Source: Variibacter sp.
GTDB taxonomy: Bacteria; Pseudomonadota; Alphaproteobacteria; Rhizobiales; Xanthobacteraceae
Direction: 5' to 3'
DNA length: 64,000 nt
Assembly: GCA_019689555.1 (NCBI GenBank)
Contig: JADGHE010000005.1
Span: forward strand, 1 to 64,000
Under the pieces are notes generated by a model that was not told where the DNA came from, did no database searches, and saw only the letters and a list, made by a program, of their open reading frames with translations. Of the stretch, positions 926 to 46,519 are shown one piece after another. A program made the translations under genes and the position numbers. Position 1 is the first letter of the stretch; every line of letters starts with the position of its first letter.

Positions 926-3154
926 TCAGCCGGCGACGAGGCGGCGCTGCCGCTCGGGTTCCGTTGCGGGGGCCTGCGTGGCGAGCCGCCGGGCAATTTC
1001 GGTGGCTTCGACCGGATGCCCGAACAGATAGCCCTGCATCGCGTGCACGCCGGCCGCGCGCAGAAAGAGCTGCTGATTGGCGTTCTCCACGCCCTCGGCG
1101 GTCACCTTCATGCCGAGGCCGCGGCCGAGGCTGATGATCGCATGCACGATGGCCGCCGCGTCGGCGGCGCTCTCGATGTTGTTGACGAAGCTGCGGTCGA
1201 TTTTGAGCTTGTCGAAGGGAAAGGTGCGCAGGTAGAGCAGGCTCGAATAGCCGGTGCCGAAGTCGTCGAGCGCGAACTTCACGCCGAGAGTCTTGAGTCG
1301 ACGCATCGCGCTTTCCGCTCCTTCGACATTGCCGAGGAGCGTGCTTTCGGTGAGCTCGAGCTCCAGTCGCCGCGGGTCGAAGCCCGTCTGCTCCAGGATC
1401 CGCTGTACGACCTCGACGAAATCGGGCCGCCGGAACTGCAGGGGCGAGACGTTGACGGCGACCGTCACGTCCGGCCAGATGCGGCCGTCCATGCAGGCGC
1501 GCCGCAGCACCCATTCGCCGAGCGGAATGATGAGCTCGCTCTGCTCCGCCACCGCGATGAACGTCGAGGGCGGGACGAGGCCGCGGACGGGATCGGGCCA
1601 GCGGCACAGCGCCTCCACGCCGATGATCCGTTCGCCGTCGGGGCTGAGCTGCGGCTGATAGGCGATGGCGAGGCCGTTGCGTTCGATCGCGCTGCGCAAA
1701 TCGCGTTCGAGCTGTTTGCGCTGCGTGAGGTCGGCGTTCATCGCCGCGTCATAGATGCAGGCCCGGTTGCGGCCTTCGTTCTTCGCGCGGTACAGCGCCA
1801 TGTCGGCGAAGCGCATGATGTCGGCGCTGTCGCGCGAGTCGCGGTCGACGACGACGATGCCGATGCTCGCGCCGATGACGAGCGTGTGGCCCGCGACGGC
1901 ATAAGGGGCGCTCACGACCGCGATGATGCGCTCGGCGATCTCCTGCAGGTGCCGCTGGTCGGTTGGGCCCCGCGTCAGCACGGCGAATTCGTCCCCGCCG
2001 AGGCGGGCGACGAGGTCCTCGCCGCGCACCGCGCCGCGCAGCCGCTGGGCGACGGCGCCGATCAGCGCGTCCCCGACGTGGTGGCCCAGCGTGTCGTTGA
2101 CGTCCTTGAAATGATCGAGGTCGATGGAGAGCAGGGCCGCCGTGGCGTGGCCCTGCCTGACGTCCCCGATCAGGGCGTCGAGGCGCTCGCCGAACAGCAT
2201 GCGGTTGGGCAGGCCGGACAAGGGATCGTGCATCGCCATGTAGCGCAGCCGATCCTCGCCGGCGGCGATGGTGGCCGTCGTGCGGCGGGCGTAGCGCAGC
2301 ACGAAGCCGGCGAGCGCGACGAAGAAGCCGAGCGCGATGCCGACGAAGGGCAGGGTGTCCCAGATGATCGCCGCGCCCGGCCGGTTGGGAGTCCACGCAA
2401 AACGCGCGATCGTCTCGCCGGCTTGGTTCTTGGGAGCGAAGAAGTTGCTGGCCGGATCGGTCGCTGTCTCGTCGACGAGTCGCAGATCGGGAAGTTCGAG
2501 CTGCTCGCCCACTTCGCGCAGGAAGCCGCTGGAGATGAGCTTGACGATGACCAGGATCGGAGACGAGCGAACGTCGCCGCGGCCGTCGGCGTTCAGCGCC
2601 GCGGCGGCGACGAAGGCGGGCTCGCCTGCGAAGCGTTGCATCCTGGCGGCGCTCCGCGCGGGCGGCGGTTCGTGCAAGGTGCCGCGCATCGTGAGGGGAG
2701 GGCTGCTCGACGCCTCGGGCGTGATCGGGGCGAGAAGCGACGCGATCTCCCGCAGCGCGGCCGCGATTTGGTCAGCGGGCAGGGCGGCGTCGCCGGCCAG
2801 GCGCCGCACGCGTCCGCTCGCGGGGTCGACCACCAGCACCAAGGCGCCGCTGAGGGGCCCCTGAAGGCGCATGCCGATCTGCTGATGGATCCAGTCCGCA
2901 TCCGGCTCGAGCCACAGCCGTTGCAGCGCCTCATCCGCGGCGGCGATGTATTCGGCCTCCCGCAGCAGACGGTTCTGCCGGTCGGCGAGCGCATGCGAGA
3001 TCAAGGTCTGCTCGCGCTCGAGGGCCACCAGATCCGCGCGATGGGCCGACGACACGACGGCCAGCGCGATGCAGACGATGGCGAGCCCGACGACGAGCCA
3101 GATCGGCGCGACGGTGCCACGGCGGGGGCGGCACGGAAAGGGAAGGCCATCCAT
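926..3154 (-). CDS. membrane-bound GGDEF-EAL protein (diguanylate cyclase/phosphodiesterase) with periplasmic sensor region
   Basis: This protein makes and/or degrades cyclic di-GMP at the inner membrane. A first membrane segment near residue 20 and a second about 230 residues later enclose a periplasmic region, probably CHASE4-like by position and size. The GGDEF domain follows with an intact RLGGDEFAVL active site and an RGED inhibitory I-site five residues upstream. The EAL domain has EALCRW, AVNVSPLQF, ELTESTL, DDFGTGYSSL and QGYLFG. Both catalytic sites look complete, so net activity cannot be predicted. I chose the start at 3154 because GAGAGGAG sits nine bases upstream. An in-frame start at 3208 would add 18 residues, but its AAGGGG lies too close. 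A CtrA-like box is upstream at 3324-3338. Confidence 0.93.
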   Translation of the reverse strand: MDGLPFPCRPRRGTVAPIWLVVGLAIVCIALAVVSSAHRADLVALEREQTLISHALADRQNRLLREAEYIAAADEALQRLWLEPDADWIHQQIGMRLQGPLSGALVLVVDPASGRVRRLAGDAALPADQIAAALREIASLLAPITPEASSSPPLTMRGTLHEPPPARSAARMQRFAGEPAFVAAAALNADGRGDVRSSPILVIVKLISSGFLREVGEQLELPDLRLVDETATDPASNFFAPKNQAGETIARFAWTPNRPGAAIIWDTLPFVGIALGFFVALAGFVLRYARRTTATIAAGEDRLRYMAMHDPLSGLPNRMLFGERLDALIGDVRQGHATAALLSIDLDHFKDVNDTLGHHVGDALIGAVAQRLRGAVRGEDLVARLGGDEFAVLTRGPTDQRHLQEIAERIIAVVSAPYAVAGHTLVIGASIGIVVVDRDSRDSADIMRFADMALYRAKNEGRNRACIYDAAMNADLTQRKQLERDLRSAIERNGLAIAYQPQLSPDGERIIGVEALCRWPDPVRGLVPPSTFIAVAEQSELIIPLGEWVLRRACMDGRIWPDVTVAVNVSPLQFRRPDFVEVVQRILEQTGFDPRRLELELTESTLLGNVEGAESAMRRLKTLGVKFALDDFGTGYSSLLYLRTFPFDKLKIDRSFVNNIESAADAAAIVHAIISLGRGLGMKVTAEGVENANQQLFLRAAGVHAMQGYLFGHPVEATEIARRLATQAPATEPERQRRLVAG

Positions 3155-3323
3155 TGCGGGGCGCTCCTCTCCCGAACCTCCCCTCAGCAAGTGCCGCCGC
3201 GCCGACATATCCCCTTTCCGGCATTGCCCGCCGAAACCGTAGAACCAAAAGTTTGTAAAATGCTTGCTGGGGGCATGGACCTGACCGATGCTCGAGTGCG
3301 GGCGGCGATTTTCGATGGTTGCG

Positions 3324-3338
3324 TTAATCGTGCGTAAA
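3324..3338. promoter_or_regulatory. CtrA-like box TTAA-N7-TAAA
   Basis: TTAA, seven bases, TAAA: seven of eight matches to the alphaproteobacterial CtrA consensus TTAA-N7-TTAA. It lies in an AT-richer patch about 170 bp upstream of the GGDEF-EAL start (minus strand). Binding is inferred from motif and position only. The rest of the 3155-3591 gap holds only the weak small ORF listed separately. Confidence 0.35.
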
Positions 3339-3376
3339 GCGGCCTCGCGCGCGCCGACTCGTCGTCAGGAGGCGGG

Positions 3377-3547
3377 ATGGACGCGGTCCGCAATGTGATC
3401 GAAGACGGCGCGCCCGCCCGGCCGCGGCGCCGACGCCGGGCGTGGCCGGCCGGCGCAATTCTCCGGCTCGGCCGTTTCTCGACAGGCCGTGCAGGCCTCG
3501 CGGACAGCGCCGGCAGGGTCGCCTGCCGCGCGCGCCGAGACGCTTGA
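3377..3547 (+). CDS. possible small Arg-rich ORF (56 aa), doubtful
   Basis: An ATG at 3377 follows AGGAGG (3367-3372) by four bases and opens a 56-codon frame rich in Arg, Ala and Gly that ends at TGA 3547, 50 bp before the molybdopterin-binding gene. There is no recognisable domain, signal or membrane segment. The Arg-rich composition is what any frame in GC-rich DNA gives. The good Shine-Dalgarno sequence is the only support, so it may equally be a noncoding leader of the next gene. Confidence 0.2.
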   Translation: MDAVRNVIEDGAPARPRRRRRAWPAGAILRLGRFSTGRAGLADSAGRVACRARRDA

Positions 3548-3597
3548 GCGGCGGCAGCGGGCGCGTTAGACGAGCCCGACGACACTGGGGGATGTCC

Positions 3598-5091: not shown

Positions 5092-5177
5092 GCGGACGTG
5101 GCGGAACGGTAGACGCAACGGACTTAAAATCCGTTGGGGGTTTCCCCGTGCGGGTTCGAGTCCCGCCGTCCGCACCA
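5092..5177 (+). tRNA. tRNA-Leu (anticodon UAA)
   Basis: A class II tRNA of 86 nt with encoded CCA. The acceptor arm GCGGACG pairs with CGTCCGC before A-CCA. The anticodon stem ACGGA/TCCGT encloses the loop CTTAAAA, giving anticodon TAA. The variable arm is long (GGGG..CCCC), as in tRNA-Leu. The T arm is GCGGG-TTCGAGT-CCCGC. It lies immediately upstream of the lasso-peptide block, a common position for integrated DNA, but I found no second copy of its 3' end in the window. Confidence 0.95.
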
Positions 5178-5445: not shown

Positions 5446-5616
5446 ATGGCGCGCAATGGCCCTTCCTTGTCCGGTGAGCCGCACGCAGCCGAAACCGAAG
5501 GTTGTGGTCGGGTTCGACGCCCCTGGAGGTCTCCGGTTCTCGCCGAACTGAAGACGGTGTCCGCAGCCGAAACCGGCCTTCTCGTCGGCACGGAGCTGGT
5601 GGTCCTCCTGTCGTAG
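5446..5616 (+). CDS. putative lasso peptide precursor (A protein), 56 aa
   Basis: A short ORF with a strong Shine-Dalgarno sequence (GGAGG, eight-base spacing) beside lasso B2, C, kinase and B1 genes. Residues 27-32 read WRSPVL, which fits the YxxPxL leader motif bound by B1 proteins with Trp in place of Tyr. Fourteen residues after that Pro comes Gly44, where lasso cores usually begin. The proposed core is GLLVGTELVVLLS: Gly1 would close on Glu7, a seven-residue ring as in xanthomonins, leaving a six-residue tail ending in Ser. The leader ends Glu-Thr, so Thr is at -1 rather than the usual -2, and the canonical Gly after PxL is Lys. The C-terminal Ser matches the acceptor of paeninodin-type lasso kinases. 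The assignment is inferred; the cleavage site and ring need mass data. Confidence 0.6.
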   Translation: MARNGPSLSGEPHAAETEGCGRVRRPWRSPVLAELKTVSAAETGLLVGTELVVLLS

Positions 5617-5668
5617 GAGCGTCCCGGCGGGCCCCGCCCGCCTGCGTCGGGCGTGTGGGGCGCAAGCA

Positions 5669-5707
5669 GGCCCCGTGCGGGGACCGCCCCTCTCTCCGCA
5701 CGGGGCC
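5669..5707. terminator. 12-bp inverted repeat between precursor and B2 gene
   Basis: GGCCCCGTGCGG (5669-5680) and its exact complement CCGCACGGGGCC (5696-5707) flank a 15-base loop. The hairpin lies 52 bp after the precursor stop and 117 bp before the end of the convergent B2 gene, where a two-way terminator would sit. There is no T-tract on either side, so Rho-independent termination is not assured. Confidence 0.4.
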
Positions 5708-5823
5708 GGCGCCCGGTCAGCCGCCGCTCTCGCCGGGTGGACGAGCTCCTTTTCTCCCAGGTTTTGCAAGAAGCGGCCGGACAGGCACGGCAGATGCGTT
5801 TGATGTCGCTCGGACGCGCCTTT

Positions 5824-6324
5824 TCAACCGCTTGCGCTGCGGCCGATGCCCCGCTCGGTCCGCGGCAGGCCGCCGGCAGGGCCGTAGCGCGCGATGACCG
5901 TGAATTGATCGGCGATCTCGCCGCCGACGAGCGCGCGGCCGGCGACGCTCAGCCATGCATGGAGTTCGGCGCCGCCTTCAGTCGCGGCGGTGCGGCGGAT
6001 GCCGACACAAAGAGTGCTCGCGACGTTGCGCCGCGCCAGCATCCATTTCGCGGCCATGGCCCGCGGCAGGCATACGGCGTCCCAGGGCAGGAGGCGCGCC
6101 GCCTGCGCAACCGCCCAGGCGACGAGTTGCGGCTCCTCCCGATCTTCGCGCGCGGTGTCGGGCTCGGCCTCTCCCCGGATCGGCCCGAGCAGCGGCGCCC
6201 AGCGCCGATAGGGAACGATTTTGACCATCGCCTGCGCCGCAACGAGCAGAAGGACGGCTTCACAAAGCGCGAGCTTGCGCGCGAAAGGCAGAGCGAGAAA
6301 CCGGACAACCCGAGCAAAAAGCAT
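5824..6324 (-). CDS. lasso peptide biosynthesis B2 protein (leader peptidase)
   Basis: A 166-residue protein with the transglutaminase-like cysteine-protease fold of lasso B2 enzymes, which remove the leader before cyclisation. The Cys-containing motif DAVCLPRAMAAKWML and, about 40 residues later, the His motif ELHAWLSV have the family spacing, with a further acidic residue near the C-terminus. The N-terminus has a hydrophobic stretch (LCEAVLLLVAAQAMV), also common in B2 proteins. It is encoded convergently to the precursor and divergently from the cyclase across a 266-bp gap. The start at 6322-6324 is the only good ATG. It needs the separate PqqD-like B1 protein encoded at 11096 to find the leader. 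Confidence 0.87.
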   Translation of the reverse strand: MLFARVVRFLALPFARKLALCEAVLLLVAAQAMVKIVPYRRWAPLLGPIRGEAEPDTAREDREEPQLVAWAVAQAARLLPWDAVCLPRAMAAKWMLARRNVASTLCVGIRRTAATEGGAELHAWLSVAGRALVGGEIADQFTVIARYGPAGGLPRTERGIGRSASG

Positions 6325-6590
6325 GGCAAAACCTTTGTCGCGCCTTTCGCAAAATCAGCTCGCGAAGCTTTTAGCGGCCGGGGCCCCGCGCGCACGAGCA
6401 TCACCATAACGCGTCGAAAAGCCCGGTGCCAACCGCGGCGCGCGGTTTTGCACGTGTCGCGCGCGGGCTCGCCGCGGCTTTCCTTGCAGCGTCGCGGCGG
6501 GCTCGTGCTCGGTTTTGCGAATCGTTCGGCAGAAGTTTTCCGTTCCTATGTCCGCCTTTTGCCATTGGCCAATATGGGGGTTGTCGGCAC

Positions 6591-8573
6591 ATGAGCGGCA
6601 TCGGCGCCGTATTTCACCGCGACGGGCGGCCGGCGGGCCGCGACGAGATCACGCGCATGGCGCGCGCGCTCGCGATCTATGGTCCCGAACGCCAAGCCAT
6701 CAGCACCGCCGGCTCCATCGCCTTCGCCTACACGCATTTCAGCAACACGCCGGAGTCGCGCTTCGAGCAGCAGCCGCTCGGCGGAGGCGGCGGCCGTTTC
6801 ATGATGGTGTTCGACGGGCGTTTGGACAATCGGGAGGAACTCGCCGAACAGCTCGGCATCGGGGCGCCCGATCTTGCGCTGCTCAGCGACTCGGCGATCG
6901 CCATGCGCTGCTGGGAAAAGTGGAGGCTCTCCGCCCCCGAGCGATGGATCGGAGAATTTGCGGTTATCATATGGGACAAGGCGGAGCGGCAGCTTGTGGC
7001 CGCGCGCGACCCGTTCGGGCTCCGCACCCTCAGCTTCCATGCGTCGCCGACGCGGCTTGTCCTCGCCTCGGCGCCGAAAGGCGTGTTCGCCGCGGGCGGA
7101 GTGCCGCGCGCGCTCGACGAGCAGAAGATTGCCGACGCCCTGGTGCATCTCTACAGCGACGTTTCGCGAAGTTTTTTCAAGGATGTCCAGCGGCTTGCGC
7201 CGGCTCATCTGCTGATCGCCGACGGCAGGAAACTGGAAATCCGGCGCTACTGGTCTGCGGAGAATCTGCCGGAGGTGCGGCTGCCGCGGGACGATGATTA
7301 CGTGGAGGCTGCGCGCGAGCTGTTGGCGCGCGCCACCAAGGCGCAGCTCCGCAGCGCCGGCCGCGTCGGTGCGCTGATGAGCGGCGGCCTCGACTCGCCG
7401 GCGGTGGCGATCACGGCGCTGTCCCATCTTCAAAGCGCGGGCGAAACTCTGCCGGTCTTCACCTGGGTGCCCGAGCCCGGATGGGACGGCCTGGCTCCGG
7501 AGTTCAGCTACGGCGACGAGACGCCCTACGTGCAGGCGATCGCCGCGATGCATCCCGGCCTCGAGGTTCACTTCGTGCGCGCCGAGGGCCTCGGTCACTA
7601 CCACCTGCTGGACGAATTCATCCGTGCCGCCGAGGTGACGCCGCGCAACGCCCTCAATATGTGCTGGGTGCACGACATTCACGCCCGAGCGCGGAGTCAG
7701 GGAATTTGCGTGCTGCTGTGCGGCGCGGTCGGAAACGTCACGCTGAGCTGGAGCGGCATGGGCGCATGTATCGAGCTCTGGCGACAGCGGCGTTTTCGCG
7801 CGCTCGCGCGGGAGCTGACGGCAGGGGCGCGGACACCGGTCGACGTCGCGCTCAACATCTGGCGGGACCTGCTGCATCCGCTGGGGCCGGACTGGCTGTT
7901 CGCCTTGCGCTCGAGGCTGCTCGATCCTCACGTTCGGGGGCCGCGTTGGCGCCGCTTTTCGGCGATCAACCCGGCTTACGCCGAGCGCATGCACATTGCG
8001 GAACGCGCAGCGCACTTCGGGTTCAACTTCTTCGGCAAGCTGCCGAGCGACCTGCGGGCGCTGCGGCGCGGCGTGCTGACCGACGGCGCGATTCTCGAAC
8101 TGGGCGACGCGGCGCAAGGGCTGCGCGCGCTGCACGGCATCGAGATGCGCGATCCGATGTGCGACCGGCGCCTGGTCGAATGGTCGCTCGGCGTGCCGGA
8201 GGAGCAGTTCCGGCGCAACGGCGTGAGGCGCTGGCTCATCAAGCGCATGATGAAGGGGCGCCTGCCCGAGTCGGTGCTGCGCAATCCCCGCAAGGGACGG
8301 CAGACGGTCGACTGGCATTGCCGGATGACGCGCGATCTGCCGCGCATCAAGAAGGATCTCGATCGGCTAGAGGCGGATCCCAACACCGCGCGCATGATCG
8401 ACATCCCCCGGCTGCGCCGCCTGCTCGACGATTGGCCCGAGCGCACGGTGATTTCGCGCTTCGACGACCGCAGCTTCTTCCTGCCGGTCATTGTGCCGAT
8501 GACGCTCGCCGCAGGCCATTTCGTGCGCTGGGTCAATGGCGCCAACGATCCGGCGCTCGAGCAGGGGATTTGA
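6591..8573 (+). CDS. asparagine synthetase-like lasso cyclase (C protein)
   Basis: A 660-residue AsnB homologue. The N-terminal half is a glutaminase-type Ntn domain beginning MSGIGAVF: the catalytic Cys2 of true asparagine synthetases (MCGI) is Ser, so ammonia release from Gln is not expected. The C-terminal half has the ATP pyrophosphatase loop ALMSGGLDSPAVA. In lasso pathways such proteins adenylate the Asp/Glu side chain and close the macrolactam onto the core N-terminus. The start at 6591 follows GGGGG by ten bases and aligns with the conserved SGI N-terminus. Between it and the B2 gene is a shared divergent promoter region. An ordinary Asn synthetase is unlikely given the Cys loss and the neighbours. 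Confidence 0.88.
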   Translation: MSGIGAVFHRDGRPAGRDEITRMARALAIYGPERQAISTAGSIAFAYTHFSNTPESRFEQQPLGGGGGRFMMVFDGRLDNREELAEQLGIGAPDLALLSDSAIAMRCWEKWRLSAPERWIGEFAVIIWDKAERQLVAARDPFGLRTLSFHASPTRLVLASAPKGVFAAGGVPRALDEQKIADALVHLYSDVSRSFFKDVQRLAPAHLLIADGRKLEIRRYWSAENLPEVRLPRDDDYVEAARELLARATKAQLRSAGRVGALMSGGLDSPAVAITALSHLQSAGETLPVFTWVPEPGWDGLAPEFSYGDETPYVQAIAAMHPGLEVHFVRAEGLGHYHLLDEFIRAAEVTPRNALNMCWVHDIHARARSQGICVLLCGAVGNVTLSWSGMGACIELWRQRRFRALARELTAGARTPVDVALNIWRDLLHPLGPDWLFALRSRLLDPHVRGPRWRRFSAINPAYAERMHIAERAAHFGFNFFGKLPSDLRALRRGVLTDGAILELGDAAQGLRALHGIEMRDPMCDRRLVEWSLGVPEEQFRRNGVRRWLIKRMMKGRLPESVLRNPRKGRQTVDWHCRMTRDLPRIKKDLDRLEADPNTARMIDIPRLRRLLDDWPERTVISRFDDRSFFLPVIVPMTLAAGHFVRWVNGANDPALEQGI

Positions 8574-8619
8574 ACAGGTGGAGAAGGCTCGCCGCAGCGC
8601 GGGGCGAGGGGCGGACGCG

Positions 8620-9876
8620 TCAGCCCGTGCGGAAGCCGCGATGCAGGATGTCGCGACGCAGCCGGCGCCCGGCGCGCCGGAGGAGATGCAGCGCCGCGAG
8701 CGCGTAATAGAGCCAGCGCGGCAGGTCGGGAATGCTCCACGCGGCGATGTCGGTCGTCTGGACCAGTCTGATACCGAGGGCGGAGGCGATCGCGCGCGGG
8801 CGTCGCGAAGCGGTCATCATCACGAGGTCGGACTCGAGCCCGAGCCGGAGGCCCGGCCGCTCGTAGGCGTCGTGCGGGGCGAGGAGACGGCGCCGGCAGA
8901 TGCGCGTAACGGAGGCGTTCTGCGCCGCCTCGAGAAAATGCGTGGCTGCGGGCGGAATTGCGGCGCCGAGCAGATCGCGCGCAAGCACGAGCCCCACGCC
9001 GACAGCTCGTTCGACGCCGAGCTGCCTCGCAAGAGCGGAAATTCGCGTCCACTCGTCGGGCACGAGGCTGCGCAGAAGCGGGGGCAGGTCGACGAGCCAT
9101 TTGGCGCGCTCCCAGCCGTGCATGTAGCCGTGCAGGGCCAGGAACAGGAAGCAGGACTCGCGCGCGAGGACACGATAGCGCGCAGCCCGCGCGCCGCCAT
9201 GCAAGATGCGGCTCTCGGTGCACAACGATTGCGCCGGCAGCAGCCCGGGAACCTGAAACGGGCGGACGTGAAGCTCGATCTGCACGTTGAGCCGCGCATT
9301 GTAGAACTCGAACTGCTTGTTAACGGCGAGAAAGGCGGCGAGGCCCGTGTCGGATCGCGGGATCGCCGGCTCGGCAATGGCGTAGCCGAGCGCGCGCAGA
9401 ACTTCGGAGGCGGTCTTCAGCTCGCCCGGCGCGACGAGAATATCGATGTCCTTGGCGACGCGCTCCCCGATGGGGCGGCCGAGGGCCTCCTCGAGGCACC
9501 ATCCCTTGAAGAGAACGGGCTCGATGCCGTGCCGGTTGAGGGCCGACACCACGCGCGCGCTCTCGGCCTTGAGGACGAGAGCGTGCATGCCCGCGCGGCG
9601 CGCCTCGGCCTTGAACTCGGCCGCGACGTCGGCCGGCACGCGTTCAGGAATCGTCGTCGCCAGGGTGCGCCCGACGAGCGGACCGACGCGATGGCGCGTG
9701 ATCGCCAACGCGGCGAGGCGCTGCCACTCCTCGCGATCGAAGTCGCGCGTGTGGCTGCGAAGGGCCTCGCGCGCGGGCGGATCACGCAGAACCAGGATCA
9801 GGGCGCCGACGGCGCCGCCGAGCGCAAGCGCATCCGTGGCGGAGAAGTCAGGCCGGGCATCGGTCCGCGCGTCCAC
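8620..9876 (-). CDS. nucleotidyltransferase family protein of the lasso cluster
   Basis: A 418-residue member of the uncharacterised nucleotidyltransferase family PF14907. The polymerase-beta-like metal motif is KDIDILV, near residue 142, preceded by LFKGWCLEEALG. This family recurs in RiPP and kinase-containing lasso clusters, but its reaction there is not well established; transfer of a nucleotide or phosphate-linked group to the peptide is a reasonable guess. Translation starts at GTG 9874-9876 directly after an in-frame TGA, with GGGAGGG at the right distance. The gene is convergent with the cyclase (46-bp gap) and divergent from the kinase. Confidence 0.82.
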   Translation of the reverse strand: MDARTDARPDFSATDALALGGAVGALILVLRDPPAREALRSHTRDFDREEWQRLAALAITRHRVGPLVGRTLATTIPERVPADVAAEFKAEARRAGMHALVLKAESARVVSALNRHGIEPVLFKGWCLEEALGRPIGERVAKDIDILVAPGELKTASEVLRALGYAIAEPAIPRSDTGLAAFLAVNKQFEFYNARLNVQIELHVRPFQVPGLLPAQSLCTESRILHGGARAARYRVLARESCFLFLALHGYMHGWERAKWLVDLPPLLRSLVPDEWTRISALARQLGVERAVGVGLVLARDLLGAAIPPAATHFLEAAQNASVTRICRRRLLAPHDAYERPGLRLGLESDLVMMTASRRPRAIASALGIRLVQTTDIAAWSIPDLPRWLYYALAALHLLRRAGRRLRRDILHRGFRTG

Positions 9877-10181
9877 TCATCCCTCCCTTGCGCTCTCGGC
9901 CGTGTTTTCCGTCGCATCCGCGGCATTGAACCGATGCGCACATCGCTGCGCGCGAGGTTGGGTTCCGAACGCGGGGTGCGAAGCCTTCGCGTTCAGGACC
10001 GCGACAACCGTGCTTTTCGAGGAAAGGATCAGGCGGCCCGCGAAAGCGAGAACGTGCGTCGGAGCGGCGAGGGTGTGCGGCGGCATCGACGAAAGCTAAG
10101 CGCCGCGCGGCTATCGTTGCAAGGGTTTGTGCGGTGTTTTCCGAAGAGTAACGCGCTGGTTAACGAAAGGCGGAGCGCAGT
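9877..10181. promoter_or_regulatory. divergent intergenic region of nucleotidyltransferase and kinase genes
   Basis: 305 bp without a convincing gene. A 69-codon minus-strand frame (9877-10086) is open but ends exactly where the nucleotidyltransferase SD sequence sits, and it shows no leader or core features. AT-richer stretches (10110-10170, including GGTTAACGAAAGG) precede the kinase GTG. I infer two back-to-back promoters. Confidence 0.35.
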
Positions 10182-11099
10182 GTGATCGGCTATCGCATCG
10201 GCGGGCTCCATGTATGGTCGGAGTTCGAATTCCCCAATCTCGCTCCGATCGAGAAGACTGTTCGCGAACCGGCGGACGTCGTCGTGCGGTTTTGCGACGA
10301 GGTCGGCGCGCCGCGCGATCCGCGTTTTCAAAATGCGCTGATTGCCGCGGGCGAGGAGGATTTCCTGTTTCGGCCGGGGCCCTGTTTGTCGTTTCGCATC
10401 CAGGCCGGACGGGACATCGCCATCGCGCGCGGGCCGGGAGCCACGGACGACGAAGTCCGGGTTTACCTGACGGGATCGGTTTGGGGCGCGCTCTGCCATC
10501 AGCGTCGTCTCGTGCCGCTTCACTGCAGCGCCGTCGCCTGCAAGGGCAGGACGTTCGGCTTTGCGGGGCCGTCCGGGGCGGGGAAATCCACGCTCGCGGC
10601 CGCGCTCGCCCGACGAGGCCACGCCCATGTCTGCGACGATGTCTGCGTCTTCGATGCGGCGGACGGTGCGCCGCGCGTCAACCCGATGCCGAAGGACTTG
10701 AAGCTGTGGCGCGACGCGGCGGAAGCGCTCGGCTACGCGCGCGGCCCGCGCGTCCTTGGCGATCTGGAGAAGTATTACGTGCCCCTGCCGACGCCCGCGG
10801 CCGACGGCCCCTTCGAAATGGCCGCGCTCTACCTCTTGAGCGATGCGGGCGCAGCGCCCGCCATCGCCAGGGTCCAGGGCGGTGCGCGGTTGCGCGACCT
10901 TCTGGCCAGCATTTATCGGAGCGAATGGCTGAACCTGATCCGGCCCCCCGCGGAGGTGTTCGTGCAGGTCGCCGCGCTCGCAAGGCGGCTCAAAATTTTC
11001 CGGTTCTCTCGTCCCCGGACCATGGCGCGCTTCGAGGAGGGCTTGGCGCTGCTCGAGGCGCACATGGCCGAGGTCGCCGAAGGGGGTGAAGGCTCATGA
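10182..11099 (+). CDS. HPr kinase/phosphorylase-like kinase of the lasso cluster
   Basis: A 305-residue protein with the HprK C-terminal kinase fold. The Walker A loop is GPSGAGKST near residue 130, followed by the acidic CDDVCVFD motif. The N-terminal receptor domain of true HPr kinases is replaced by an unrelated region. Such stand-alone kinases occur in lasso clusters; PadeK/ThcoK of the paeninodin type phosphorylate the C-terminal Ser of the precursor. The proposed precursor here ends in Ser, so it fits as substrate. The start is GTG 10182 with a GGAG upstream. Its end overlaps the B1 start by four bases (ATGA), so the two are translationally coupled. A role in sugar catabolite control is unlikely without PTS neighbours. 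Confidence 0.85.
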   Translation: MIGYRIGGLHVWSEFEFPNLAPIEKTVREPADVVVRFCDEVGAPRDPRFQNALIAAGEEDFLFRPGPCLSFRIQAGRDIAIARGPGATDDEVRVYLTGSVWGALCHQRRLVPLHCSAVACKGRTFGFAGPSGAGKSTLAAALARRGHAHVCDDVCVFDAADGAPRVNPMPKDLKLWRDAAEALGYARGPRVLGDLEKYYVPLPTPAADGPFEMAALYLLSDAGAAPAIARVQGGARLRDLLASIYRSEWLNLIRPPAEVFVQVAALARRLKIFRFSRPRTMARFEEGLALLEAHMAEVAEGGEGS

Positions 11100-11398
11100 C
11101 GACGGTCGGAATGGACAGCATCATCGTCCGCAAGGAGAACCATCTCGAAACGCCGCTCGACGACGAGGTGATCCTGATGCACGCCGAGTCCGGCGAGATC
11201 TACGGCCTGGCCGACACGGCCAGAGACATCTGGGTCGCGCTCCGCGAGCCGATCTCCTTCGGGGCGCTTCTCGACCGCCTGGTCGAGGCGTTCGACGTGA
11301 CGCGCGAAGTCTGCGGCGCGGAGGTCGGCGACTTCCTGGCCCGACTCGAGCGCGCGGGCATGATCGAAATCCGGCCGCGGGCGCCGTCCGCCCCCTGA
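11096..11398 (+). CDS. PqqD family peptide-chaperone (lasso B1, leader-binding protein)
   Basis: A 100-residue protein of the PqqD/RRE fold. The segment DDEVILMHAESGEIYGLADTAR..W is the typical beta-hairpin and helix pattern (E..YGLN.TG..IW in PqqD). B1 proteins bind the YxxPxL leader motif and hand the precursor to B2. It overlaps the kinase gene by ATGA, so it is made with the kinase rather than with B2, which lies 5 kb away on the other strand. PqqD itself is excluded by the absence of pqq genes. Confidence 0.83.
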   Translation: MTTVGMDSIIVRKENHLETPLDDEVILMHAESGEIYGLADTARDIWVALREPISFGALLDRLVEAFDVTREVCGAEVGDFLARLERAGMIEIRPRAPSAP

Positions 11399-11655: not shown

Positions 11656-12285
11656 ATGGTTCAAGGAAAATCGGCGGCACTGGCGGCTGTGGCCGCAAGC
11701 ATGATGTGGGCCGGCGCGGCCGGCGGTGCGGATCTGCAGGGGCGGGCGCCGGGCCTTGCGCCGCTTGCGCCCGTGGCCACGGATCCGGCCGACAGTTTCG
11801 AGGCGCGGCTCGGCGTCTTCGCCCATGGCGTCGGCAGCGTCGAGCAGGGCACGGTCGACATCAACGGCGAGGTGGTCTCCCCGCGGCTTTCGTTCGGTGC
11901 GACCGGACCCTGGACCTTTCTCATTCCCCGCGTCCATGTCGGCGGCTCGGTGAACCTGGGGAGCCGGACGAGCTTCGCCTATGCCGGCCTTCTGTGGACC
12001 ATCCCGGTCTGGGACCGGGTGTTTATCGAGGGCTATGTCGGGCCGGCCGTCCACAACGGTTCGCTCACGCCCACGCCCACGCAAGCGGGGCTCGGCTGTC
12101 CGACGCTGTTTCACGCGGGCGCCTCGATCGGCTATCGCCTGACGCAGCAGTGGAGCGTCATCGCCACCTTCGAGCATCTCTCGAACGGCAGGACCGCGTT
12201 CGGCATTCATTGCGGCGCAAATCAAGGCCCGGGCGGAAATCAGGGCCTCAACAATTACGGCCTGCGCATCGGCTATTCGTTCTGA
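11656..12285 (+). CDS. acyloxyacyl hydrolase / lipid A 3-O-deacylase (PagL type)
   Basis: A 209-residue outer-membrane beta-barrel. The N-terminus (KSAALAAVAASMMWAGAAGGA) is a signal peptide. The PagL catalytic His-Ser motif appears as FEHLSNGRTAF about 40 residues before the end, and the protein closes with the barrel signal GLRIGYSF ending in Phe. PagL removes the 3-linked acyl chain of lipid A and so remodels the outer leaflet. Start: ATG 11656; GTG 11644 in the same frame would add four residues and is possible. It lies 257 bp after the lasso B1 gene and is probably independent of that pathway. Confidence 0.8.
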   Translation: MVQGKSAALAAVAASMMWAGAAGGADLQGRAPGLAPLAPVATDPADSFEARLGVFAHGVGSVEQGTVDINGEVVSPRLSFGATGPWTFLIPRVHVGGSVNLGSRTSFAYAGLLWTIPVWDRVFIEGYVGPAVHNGSLTPTPTQAGLGCPTLFHAGASIGYRLTQQWSVIATFEHLSNGRTAFGIHCGANQGPGGNQGLNNYGLRIGYSF

Positions 12286-44452: not shown

Positions 44453-46519
44453 TCAGTCGAGCGCGCCGAAGCGCATGCGCAGCCCCGCATAGGCTGCAAA
44501 GCCTGGCGCACGGTACGAAAGGGCCTCTTCGTAGCGCGCGTCGAACAGGTTCTCGGCGCGGACATAGGCCGTTGCCCACGGCGTTACGTCGTAGGAGAGC
44601 ATAGCGCGAACCACCGTGACGCCCGGCAGGTCGACCAGCACCGTGCCCGTCGGCCCGAAGAAGAAGTCCTTTCGGATCCCGTTGTAGACGACGCCGACAG
44701 TGGCTCTCGCGCGGTTGTCCAGGAACCGGGCGGTGGCCTCGAACGAGGCCGCGTTCGGCGGGCGCCGCACTTCTTCCACGCCGGTGCTGTCTCTCGCGTC
44801 CGTGTAGGTGTAGGTCGCCTTCACGGTGAGCCAGTCGAAGACGGCCCAAGTTGTACTTGCCTCGACGCCGCGGCGCTTCGCGAGCCCCGCAGCGTTAACA
44901 TAGACGAAGCCGCCGCGCGCGGGATCGAAGGTCGGCTCGATCTTGTCGCGGAAGTCGGAGGCGAAATAGGTGACGTCGGTCACCAGCCGTCCGTCCCAGA
45001 AGCTCTGCTCGACGCCGGCGTCCCAGCCGACCGAGTGCTCGGGGCGCAGGCCCGGATTGGGCAGATTGAACGTCGAGCCGAACAGCTCGAAAGGGGTAGG
45101 ATCCGTGAGCCCCTTGCCGATGCTCGCGTGCAGGCGCGTGCCGGTCGCCGGAATGCGCTGGGAGAGCGCATAGCGCCATGTGAACACATCGGTGAAGGCC
45201 GAGTTCCAGTCGTAACGCAAGGCGCTCGAAAAGCTGGTGTGGGTCGGCAGGTCGAGCTGATACTCGCCGGCGAGACCCGTCCGCTCTTTTACGTAGCGCG
45301 CCGGCTCGTTGACGGCCACATAATGCTCCCGCCGATTGTCGAGCAGCAGCGTCAGCGTGTGGCCCTCGCCGCCGAAGAGGTCCGTGCCGTAACGCAGGAT
45401 CGATTTGTAATCGAGACCAGTACGCTCGCCGTTTGCGCCGAAGATGGTCGCGCCGTTTGAAAAGCCGCGAATGGTTTCGTCGAAGCCCTTCACGTTGGCG
45501 ATCTGCGTCCAGTGGCCGTCGAACAGCGTCAGCGTCGCGCCGACCCGGCCGCTCGTGCTCCCGTAGGTGGTGCGGTCGTTGCCGTCGATCACCAGGCCGT
45601 AGGTCGCCGGATTGGCGGGCGGACACGCGAAGGTGACCGGATCGAAATTGCAGTTGAAATCCTGCGGGTCGGTCTCGGCGGCGCGCTTGGTGTGGCGGAC
45701 GACGGCTTCGACGTTGAAGTCGGGCGTGAAGTCCACGCCGGCTTTGCCCGTCACAGTCAAGGCGTAGCTGCCGTCACGTTCGCTGCCGAAGCGGGAGATG
45801 TTGTAGCCGGCCGTCGTCGTATCGCTGAACGTCACCGAGCCATAGAACAATCCCGCGGCGCCACGCGCATTCGCCCCCGCGGTGCGGGTGCCGCGCGATC
45901 CGCCTTCGATCTTGACGTCGGCGAGCGGCCGCGAGAGTCCGCGCCCGGACCGGGTGACGATCGAGACCACCCCGGCGTGGGCGTTGGCGCCATAGAGGCC
46001 GGACTGCGGGCCGCGCACCACCTCGATGCGCTCGATGTCCTCGACCGACAGATCGGCGAAGTCGAAGCCGCCGTCGCCGAGCGAGTTCACTTCGATTCCG
46101 TCGATGACGACCATCAGGTGATTGGCTTCCGCGCCGCGGATGCGCACCTGCGTCACGGTGCCGGGTCCGCCCGAGGCCGCGACCTGGACGCCGGGGACGA
46201 AGCGCAAAGCCTCGGCCACCGTGGGGACGCCCTTGGCGCGCAGCTCTGCGCCGGTGACGACCGTCACCGCGGCGCCGACCCGGCTCGCCTCCGTGGGCGC
46301 CTGATCGGCGGACACGACGATCTCAGGGATGGGAACGGCCTGCGCCAGCGCCCGCGTGCCCGCAAGCGCCGCGAAGCCGCACACCGCGGGCAGCAGCAAC
46401 AGGCGGCGAGTCAGGTTTTCACGGCGACCGCTCGGACCCGCGAGGGGCGAATCCAAAAGTCGCGCAACGCGCCGCCGCAACAGGATGGGATGGATGGAAA
46501 CAGCCGCACGGGCTGACAT
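44453..46519 (-). CDS. btuB: TonB-dependent vitamin B12 receptor (BtuB-like)
   Basis: A 688-residue outer-membrane receptor. The signal region (LLLLPAVCGFAALAGTRALA) and a TonB-box-like EIVVSAD are followed by a plug domain (TVAEALRFVPGVQV, VRGPQSGLYGANAHAGVVSI) and a 22-strand-type barrel ending in MRFGALD. A cobalamin riboswitch lies in its leader, which supports corrinoid uptake. ATG 46519 has GGAGG six bases upstream. No btuFCD genes are in the window. Confidence 0.88.
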   Translation of the reverse strand: MSARAAVSIHPILLRRRVARLLDSPLAGPSGRRENLTRRLLLLPAVCGFAALAGTRALAQAVPIPEIVVSADQAPTEASRVGAAVTVVTGAELRAKGVPTVAEALRFVPGVQVAASGGPGTVTQVRIRGAEANHLMVVIDGIEVNSLGDGGFDFADLSVEDIERIEVVRGPQSGLYGANAHAGVVSIVTRSGRGLSRPLADVKIEGGSRGTRTAGANARGAAGLFYGSVTFSDTTTAGYNISRFGSERDGSYALTVTGKAGVDFTPDFNVEAVVRHTKRAAETDPQDFNCNFDPVTFACPPANPATYGLVIDGNDRTTYGSTSGRVGATLTLFDGHWTQIANVKGFDETIRGFSNGATIFGANGERTGLDYKSILRYGTDLFGGEGHTLTLLLDNRREHYVAVNEPARYVKERTGLAGEYQLDLPTHTSFSSALRYDWNSAFTDVFTWRYALSQRIPATGTRLHASIGKGLTDPTPFELFGSTFNLPNPGLRPEHSVGWDAGVEQSFWDGRLVTDVTYFASDFRDKIEPTFDPARGGFVYVNAAGLAKRRGVEASTTWAVFDWLTVKATYTYTDARDSTGVEEVRRPPNAASFEATARFLDNRARATVGVVYNGIRKDFFFGPTGTVLVDLPGVTVVRAMLSYDVTPWATAYVRAENLFDARYEEALSYRAPGFAAYAGLRMRFGALD

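Follow-up and report, generated by a model that had tools for sequence, protein, structure and literature searches.

We analysed a 64,000-nucleotide stretch of alphaproteobacterial DNA (the window: positions 1-64000 of contig C57 in genome G000) for a lasso-peptide locus of six genes: a precursor (A), a leader peptidase (B2), a predicted macrolactam synthetase (C), a nucleotidyltransferase (N), a kinase (K) and an RRE protein (B1). They probably make up a functional biosynthetic locus, paeninodin-like and with a kinase, in which the leader would be cut after Ala-Glu and a Thr1-Glu8 ring closed. This reading draws on which genes are present, on their intact motif residues, on the precursor and on a family-wide ring-8 register, all of which were computed directly. 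The gene set itself is of known type; the altered cleavage site is the unusual part. The distinctive feature, judged by comparison of sequences, is that Ala at leader position -2 appears to be matched by the loss of a B1 tyrosine that is believed to form the S2 pocket. We give even chances to the broader proposal that a group of loci has replaced the Thr-x leader end by Ala-[Glu/Gln/Asn/Lys/Arg], with the RRE Tyr exchanged for Cys or Ile in some of them, through co-evolution of RRE and leader, and that the product here is a 14-residue lasso peptide beginning with Thr1.

The features of the locus are:

5446..5616, + strand: A, predicted lasso precursor, 56 residues (RRE motif, Ser end, register, likeness to locus L108)
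5524..5541, + strand: WRSPVL, RRE-binding motif in the A leader, residues 27-32 (sequence; motif rule of PMC13381572)
5572..5613, + strand: predicted core TGLLVGTELVVLLS (register analysis and L108 relatives)
5824..6324, - strand: B2, leader peptidase, transglutaminase-like Cys protease (PF13471, NF033537; Cys85, His122)
6591..8573, + strand: C, predicted asparagine-synthetase-like macrolactam synthetase (GATase_7, GATase_6, Asn_synthase; Ser2; SGGLDS)
8620..9876, - strand: N, PF14907 nucleotidyltransferase (PF14907; K124-G125, D143-x-D145; AlphaFold model)
10182..11099, + strand: K, HprK-like peptide kinase (H114, GxxGxGKST at 129-137, D152-D153 in alignment)
11096..11398, + strand: B1, PqqD-like RRE (PqqD match; PDB matches 9x90 and 5v1u; Ile35)

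Comparison loci carry L-numbers, and gene counts apply within the stretch taken around each locus. Statements from cited papers refer to the parts of those papers that were covered.

Identification of the precursor

The range given by a first-pass annotation of the window opens at 5446, the ATG of A, and the precursor was unnamed there. We identified the 56-residue open reading frame (ORF) at 5446-5616 as the lasso precursor from its sequence. It reads MARNGPSLSGEPHAAETEGCGRVRRP-WRSPVL-AELKTVSAAE-TGLLVGTELVVLLS, has GGAGG eight bases upstream of its ATG, and is the sole short ORF near the locus genes that bears the RRE motif. No Pfam or NCBIfam model matched it. The ORF fits the published RRE-binding rule [Y/W]xxPx[LVIAFY] (PMC13381572) together with Asp/Glu at core 7-9, and it ends in Ser, as expected for a kinase-type precursor and in agreement with the C-terminal phosphorylation that the first-pass annotation had proposed.

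We applied a filter (ORFs of 40-140 residues, [Y/W]xxPx[LIVMAFY], a Ser end, and Asp/Glu 23-25 from the aromatic residue) to 131 loci. It picked 102 of 4436 ORFs near the genes of these loci, 2 of 3319 ORFs away from them and 0 of 279 in the rest of the window, and at least one filter-positive precursor was present in 81 of the 131 loci. Repeats of the same genome are among the 131, and 121 are distinct by C; 67 of the 121 have a qualifying precursor, 58 of them with K as well. Among motif-bearing ORFs, a Ser end was found in 118/196 near genes versus 9/68 away. In an early set of 37 Ser-ending tails the Ser count is uninformative, L027, L056, L057, L058, L060 and L061 (other ends) having been omitted.

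It is very improbable that this ORF is not the substrate, or that the locus is decaying, with the true precursor elsewhere. Such a reading could appeal to the single candidate, its position, opposite in strand to B2 and at a distance of 3-5 kb from K and B1, and the outcome of a homologue search in the host and 60 related genomes, which outside the host genome gave one weak, unrelated match (the matched stretch viewed in part). The ribosome site, the motif, the Ser end, the Glu in register and the likeness to the L108 cores all favour A, and decay is at odds with the motif residues kept and with the finding that no gene of the locus is broken.

Cleavage register and ring size

In 95 distinct tails, the position of the acid tracks the leader. 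Thr15 leaders pair with an acid at 24 (17/24), Thr16 leaders with an acid at 25 (21/22) and Ala14-[EQRN]15 leaders with an acid at 23 (20/25), while Thr14 leaders are looser (acid 23 in 11/24). These pairings fit a predicted cut two residues past Thr or Ala and a ring of eight. The ring-8 arrangement (Thr or Ala-[EQNKR], acid at core 8) is present in 70 of the 95 tails, 49 with Thr and 21 with Ala; when leaders were re-paired with cores at random in 5000 draws, the mean was 38.4 and the maximum 56. Neither ring 7 (10 observed versus 21.3 after re-pairing) nor ring 9 (27 versus 30.2) was favoured, and the ring-8 result was unchanged when the window was left out (69, re-paired mean 38.0). The re-pairing supersedes an earlier shuffle control (13.0 expected), which was too lax because it ignored the required acid at 23-25.

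The window precursor has Glu24, and therefore Thr17 is residue 1, Ala15 is -2 and Glu16 is -1. The predicted core TGLLVGTELVVLLS would thus consist of a Thr1-Glu8 ring and a hydrophobic tail, LVVLLS, whose terminal Ser would serve the kinase. The closest cores come from L108, a 4.1 kb Rhodocyclaceae contig with two precursors after C (3015-3305 and 3334-3573). Its cores, LGALPGPEIIVLLS and TGILIGPEIITLVS, have 7 and 6 of the first 13 residues in common with TGLLVGTELVVLLS, plus the Ser; other cores share at most 3 of the first 13, and shuffled window cores reached 7 shared residues against any core in 7 of 2000 draws. Identity between the C of L108 and that of the window is only 33 percent, and therefore similar products may come from distant machineries.

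Three points tell against the Thr1-Glu8 assignment: 25 of the 95 tails fit neither rule, the register is ambiguous by one residue, and the 14-residue core, whose threading is putative, is small and highly hydrophobic. A cut one residue later would give the core GLLVGTELVVLLS, in which Gly1 and Glu7 close a seven-residue ring, and a leader ending in Glu(-2)-Thr(-1). Gly is the classic first residue of lasso cores, and a Gly1 start fits this. The Tyr(-17) rule also gives G1-E7: in Bradymonas precursors YxxPxL spans -17 to -12, which puts residue 1 at this Gly (PMC10368454). However, ring 7 falls below expectation after re-pairing, in the aligned L108 cores residue 1 is Thr/Leu and Glu falls at position 8, and the Thr(-2) precursors of these loci often place the aromatic residue at -16, and we consider the later cut unlikely. 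Thr at leader -2 is absent in either case, the residue being Ala in the ring-8 register and Glu in the ring-7 register; Thr(-2) is not strictly defining, Ile/Val(-2) being known (PMC10368454).

The six-residue tail leaves little threading room, and the clusters for linear polyphosphorylated peptides (LPP) of Bacillota have an RRE, an HprK-like kinase and a nucleoside triphosphate transferase in common with lasso clusters (PMC13381572). The product might thus be a linear or branched-cyclic phosphopeptide, LPP-like and modified chiefly by K and N, and no threaded lasso. This is improbable: LPP clusters process by a SipW-type signal peptidase, whereas the window has B2 and C with their motif residues kept, and the acid at core 8 is conserved across the family.

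Ala(-2) and the B1 tyrosine position

In the ring-8 register, the Ala(-2) of the window coincides with a change in B1, which has Ile35 at a position that is usually Tyr, followed by Tyr36. Ile35 aligns with Tyr38 of PbaB1 (9x90, the first Tyr of YYNLGEI) and Tyr36 with Tyr39. We infer that position 35 corresponds to FusE Tyr33, the RRE tyrosine suspected of binding Thr(-2) (PMC10368454). The PadeB1 Y38A variant still bound the leader, with little or no cleavage (PMC5067487).

We compared leader and B1 residues in the loci that had both B1 and an assigned precursor; where a locus held several clusters (e.g. L186), the assignment was made by best B1 score. In the first 47, Thr(-2) went with Tyr in 32/32, and the 15 Ala(-2) loci had Tyr (6), Cys (8) or Ile (1) (Fisher 3.7e-6, relatedness ignored). 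After the pattern had been seen, 31 further loci were added; the 13 with both assignments comprised 8 Tyr and 1 Phe with Thr(-2), and 3 Tyr and 1 Cys with Ala(-2). Over the combined 60 loci, the B1 residue is aromatic in 41/41 Thr(-2) loci (40 Tyr, 1 Phe), and the 19 Ala(-2) loci divide into 9 Tyr, 9 Cys and 1 Ile. A non-aromatic B1 residue occurs only with Ala(-2) (10/10). In the B1 tree, the window lies within a supported group of ten rows, and eight of these combine Ala(-2) with a non-aromatic residue.

Several observations temper the proposal of co-evolution. Nine Ala(-2) loci retain an aromatic B1 residue. Independent contrasts, taken on a B1 tree built without the position-35 column, yielded only 2 supported cases (same way 1.2 on average, opposite 0), which is not significant. 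Nine more loci with non-aromatic B1 (L093, L098, L100, L123, L124, L128, L156, L184 and L185) have no assigned precursor. Of the candidates that lie far from the genes or outside the filter, that of L093, 2.07 kb from K, would carry Ser(-2), that of L100 is Thr(-2) only if Pro1 and a ring of 9 are assumed, and that of L128, further off, fits Ala(-2). The literature searched, to which supplements and subscription papers (2016 paeninodin, 2019 pseudomycoidin) did not belong, yielded Ile/Val(-2) but no group of Ala(-2) loci linked to the loss of the RRE Tyr; we therefore claim no priority for such a group.

As a separate observation, in L111, L140, L152 and L173 the Ala(-2) precursors carry their acid at core 9, not 8, and the B1 position is Cys.

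Biosynthetic enzymes

The first-pass annotation had named B2, C, B1, K and N, and all five are present, B2, C, N and B1 by Pfam/NCBIfam matches and K by its motif residues; it rightly described the locus as lasso-type, alphaproteobacterial and equipped with kinase and nucleotidyltransferase genes. B2 scored 78.7 bits with PF13471 (cut-off 26) and 85.6 with NCBIfam lasso_biosyn_B2 (NF033537, cut-off 33), and it is the one PF13471 match in the genome. Its Cys85 and His122 are kept in 68/70 and 69/70 aligned B2 from lasso loci. C is above the Pfam cut-offs for GATase_7, GATase_6 and Asn_synthase. It begins at 6591 with Met-Ser-Gly-Ile, and therefore the glutaminase Cys2 is replaced by Ser, as annotated; it keeps SGGLDS in alignment with homologues from lasso loci and is 27-33 percent identical to the cyclases of seven other such loci compared.

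When 96 lasso-locus kinases are aligned, K is seen to keep H114, G129, G132, G134-K135-S136-T137 and D152-D153. The His-Lys-Asp-Asp motif is conserved across the set (H114 94/95, K135 95/96, D152 95/96, D153 96/96), and K is at most 45 percent identical to family homologues. B1 scored 56.1 with PqqD (Pfam cut-off 23.4) and 53.7 with the NCBIfam lasso PqqD model, under the cut-off of 80; its PDB matches are lasso B1 proteins, 9x90 (PbaB1) and TbiB1 5v1u.

Some features fit a working lasso locus less well. The best NCBIfam match of C is the lasso cyclase NF033535, at a score below the cut-off (304.2 versus 525). The first-pass assignment of both enzymes to lasso families is thus not refuted by hidden Markov models: B2 passes, and C is nearest to the lasso cyclase but under its threshold. 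K is below every curated cut-off (Hpr_kinase_C 20.8 versus 33.3; NCBIfam matches also sub-threshold). The locus genes sit on changing strands (A, B2, C, N, K, B1 = + - + - + +), and because the strands alternate the six genes are not one operon; the K and B1 reading frames share 4 bases. A PF00664 exporter (ABC transporter D) is absent from contig C57, and six are found elsewhere in the host genome (3.31 Mb, 108 contigs, 99 percent complete).

The nucleotidyltransferase

N scored 148.7 with PF14907 (cut-off 31.2) and keeps K124-G125 and D143-x-D145 in alignment, and it is divergent (best identity 30.7 percent, to L059). An AlphaFold model built from 18 sequences (pLDDT 87.2, pTM 0.87) is nearest MenT1 (E 5e-5, TM 0.34 by query and 0.70 by target) and also matches ANT(2'') aminoglycoside nucleotidyltransferases (E about 1e-3). 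Because of these matches, N likely carries a nucleotidyltransferase catalytic core. FKRP, a phosphosugar transferase of the nucleotidyltransferase fold, is among the structure matches (E about 0.05). PsmN has been linked to hexose on phosphoserine, a host glycosyltransferase being still possible (PMC9266682), and LppN was without effect in a foreign host (PMC13381572).

Related loci and neighbouring genes

Within the 121 distinct loci, K is near C in 96, B1 is present in 91, B2 in 70 and N in 42. Cyclase homologues occur in 35/296 genomes of the host's family (E<=1e-30) and in 39/397 genomes of its order (E 1e-60 with alignment), not all with a lasso neighbourhood. The closest enzymes are those of L093, from the same order and another family (C 55.6, K 49.7, B2 52.7, B1 51.8 percent), followed for C by L097, L098 (47.7 percent), L099, L094 and L100. 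A quick B2 tree groups the window with L093, L098 and L100, and L093 and L098 likewise have Ile at the B1 position. L098, a metagenome-assembled genome of Rhodobacteraceae, has an N-K-B1-B2-C run on one strand, unlike the mixed strands of the window. Among nine genes of four loci that were checked, an ABC transporter stands beside C in L093 and L099, unlike in the window, and sugar-nucleotide or glycosyltransferase genes beside C in L093 and L094. No precursor was found in L097, L098 or L099.

C is 55.6 percent identical to L093 and 44-49 percent to L097-L100, versus at most 38 percent to the own-family matches listed. Because sampling is thin, we do not claim horizontal transfer of the locus. 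No relative of C was confirmed on viral contigs.

Other precursor arrangements were seen. In L080 and L092, from the same family, several precursors with differing cores lie beside a single C. Long RRE-motif precursors lie beside C, B2 and B1 in L058 (10279-10500, -), L060 (5553-5849, -) and L061 (5989-6273, +), with no kinase found in the stretch examined. They have a common C-terminal block, TK[LF]GFSFE[MW]AFP[LM]S[AS]R, directly preceded by a second Thr-Lys, and counted from the first Thr-Lys their core positions 7-9 hold no acid; they possibly represent another kind of product from lasso-type enzymes.

Around the locus, a tRNA-Leu lies at 5092-5177. Just downstream of B1 is a PagL-like lipid A deacylase (11659-12282, +; PF09411 32.3 bits versus cut-off 23), which we set aside as a locus member, the Pfam match being its only basis. 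A protein with a TonB receptor plug domain is encoded about 33 kb from the locus (44456-46519, -).

Proposed pathway

We propose the following pathway, in which the sequence of reactions, the threading, the phosphorylation and the group that N attaches are deduced from the parts. B1 would bind WRSPVL of the precursor, and K, aided by B1, would phosphorylate the C-terminal Ser. B2 with B1 would cut the leader after Ala-Glu to free Thr1, after which C would activate Glu8 and close the Thr1-Glu8 ring of eight residues, and the tail LVVLLS would be expected to thread. N might then modify the phosphoserine with a hexose, a nucleotide or a sugar phosphate. As predicted, the product would be a 14-residue peptide starting with Thr1, phosphorylated and probably carrying a sugar, and as such a new natural product. 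The calculated [M+H]+ of the 14-mer lactam is 1395.85, rising to 1475.81 with phosphate and to 1637.86 with phosphate and hexose; for the 13-mer of the later cut it is 1294.80.

Provided that Ala(-2) is read correctly, mining rules that require Thr(-2) and Gly/Cys/Ser/Ala1 would miss some kinase-type lasso peptides. A single RRE residue, co-evolving with a single leader residue, would then determine the specificity of the peptidase, and the paired change would make it easy to probe how the RRE contributes to the shape of the cleavage pocket, a role termed largely enigmatic by the 2023 Bradymonas paper (PMC10368454).

Comparison with known systems

The first-pass annotation had found a kinase-type cluster surprising in this host. 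Such clusters have been published from Sphingobium and Bradymonas, and a putative proteobacterial A-B1-B2-C-K-D cluster was listed in 2016 (PMC5067487). Because kinase clusters, some with N, are known from Firmicutes, Sphingobium and Bradymonas, we reject novelty by host phylum.

The SyanK/SyanA cluster of Sphingobium yanoikuyae resembles the window in its split B1/B2, its C and its kinase, SyanK, which phosphorylates the C-terminal Ser (PMC9266682, PMC5067487); the window differs in that it has N and lacks D, its genes run on mixed strands, and it carries Ala(-2) and, within B1, Ile35. The pseudomycoidin cluster of Bacillus pseudomycoides (PsmK, PsmN) likewise combines a kinase with a nucleotidyltransferase, hexose addition being ascribed to PsmN: its product carries phosphoserine, then one or two hexoses, and its host, unlike that of the window, is a Firmicute (PMC9266682). 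The bsf cluster of Bradymonas sediminis (BsfK, BsfN), characterised in part, has A, B1, B2, C, K and N, as the window does, and also departs from Thr(-2). It has Ile(-2), a phosphorylated Ser3 and an ABC transporter, whereas the window has Ala(-2) and a C-terminal Ser (PMC10368454). Metanodin, from a soil metagenome, shares with the window an unusual residue 1, in its case Asn1, which was added to Gly, Cys, Ser and Ala as the residues observed there; it keeps Thr(-2), whereas the window has Ala(-2) with a predicted Thr1 (PMC12670498).

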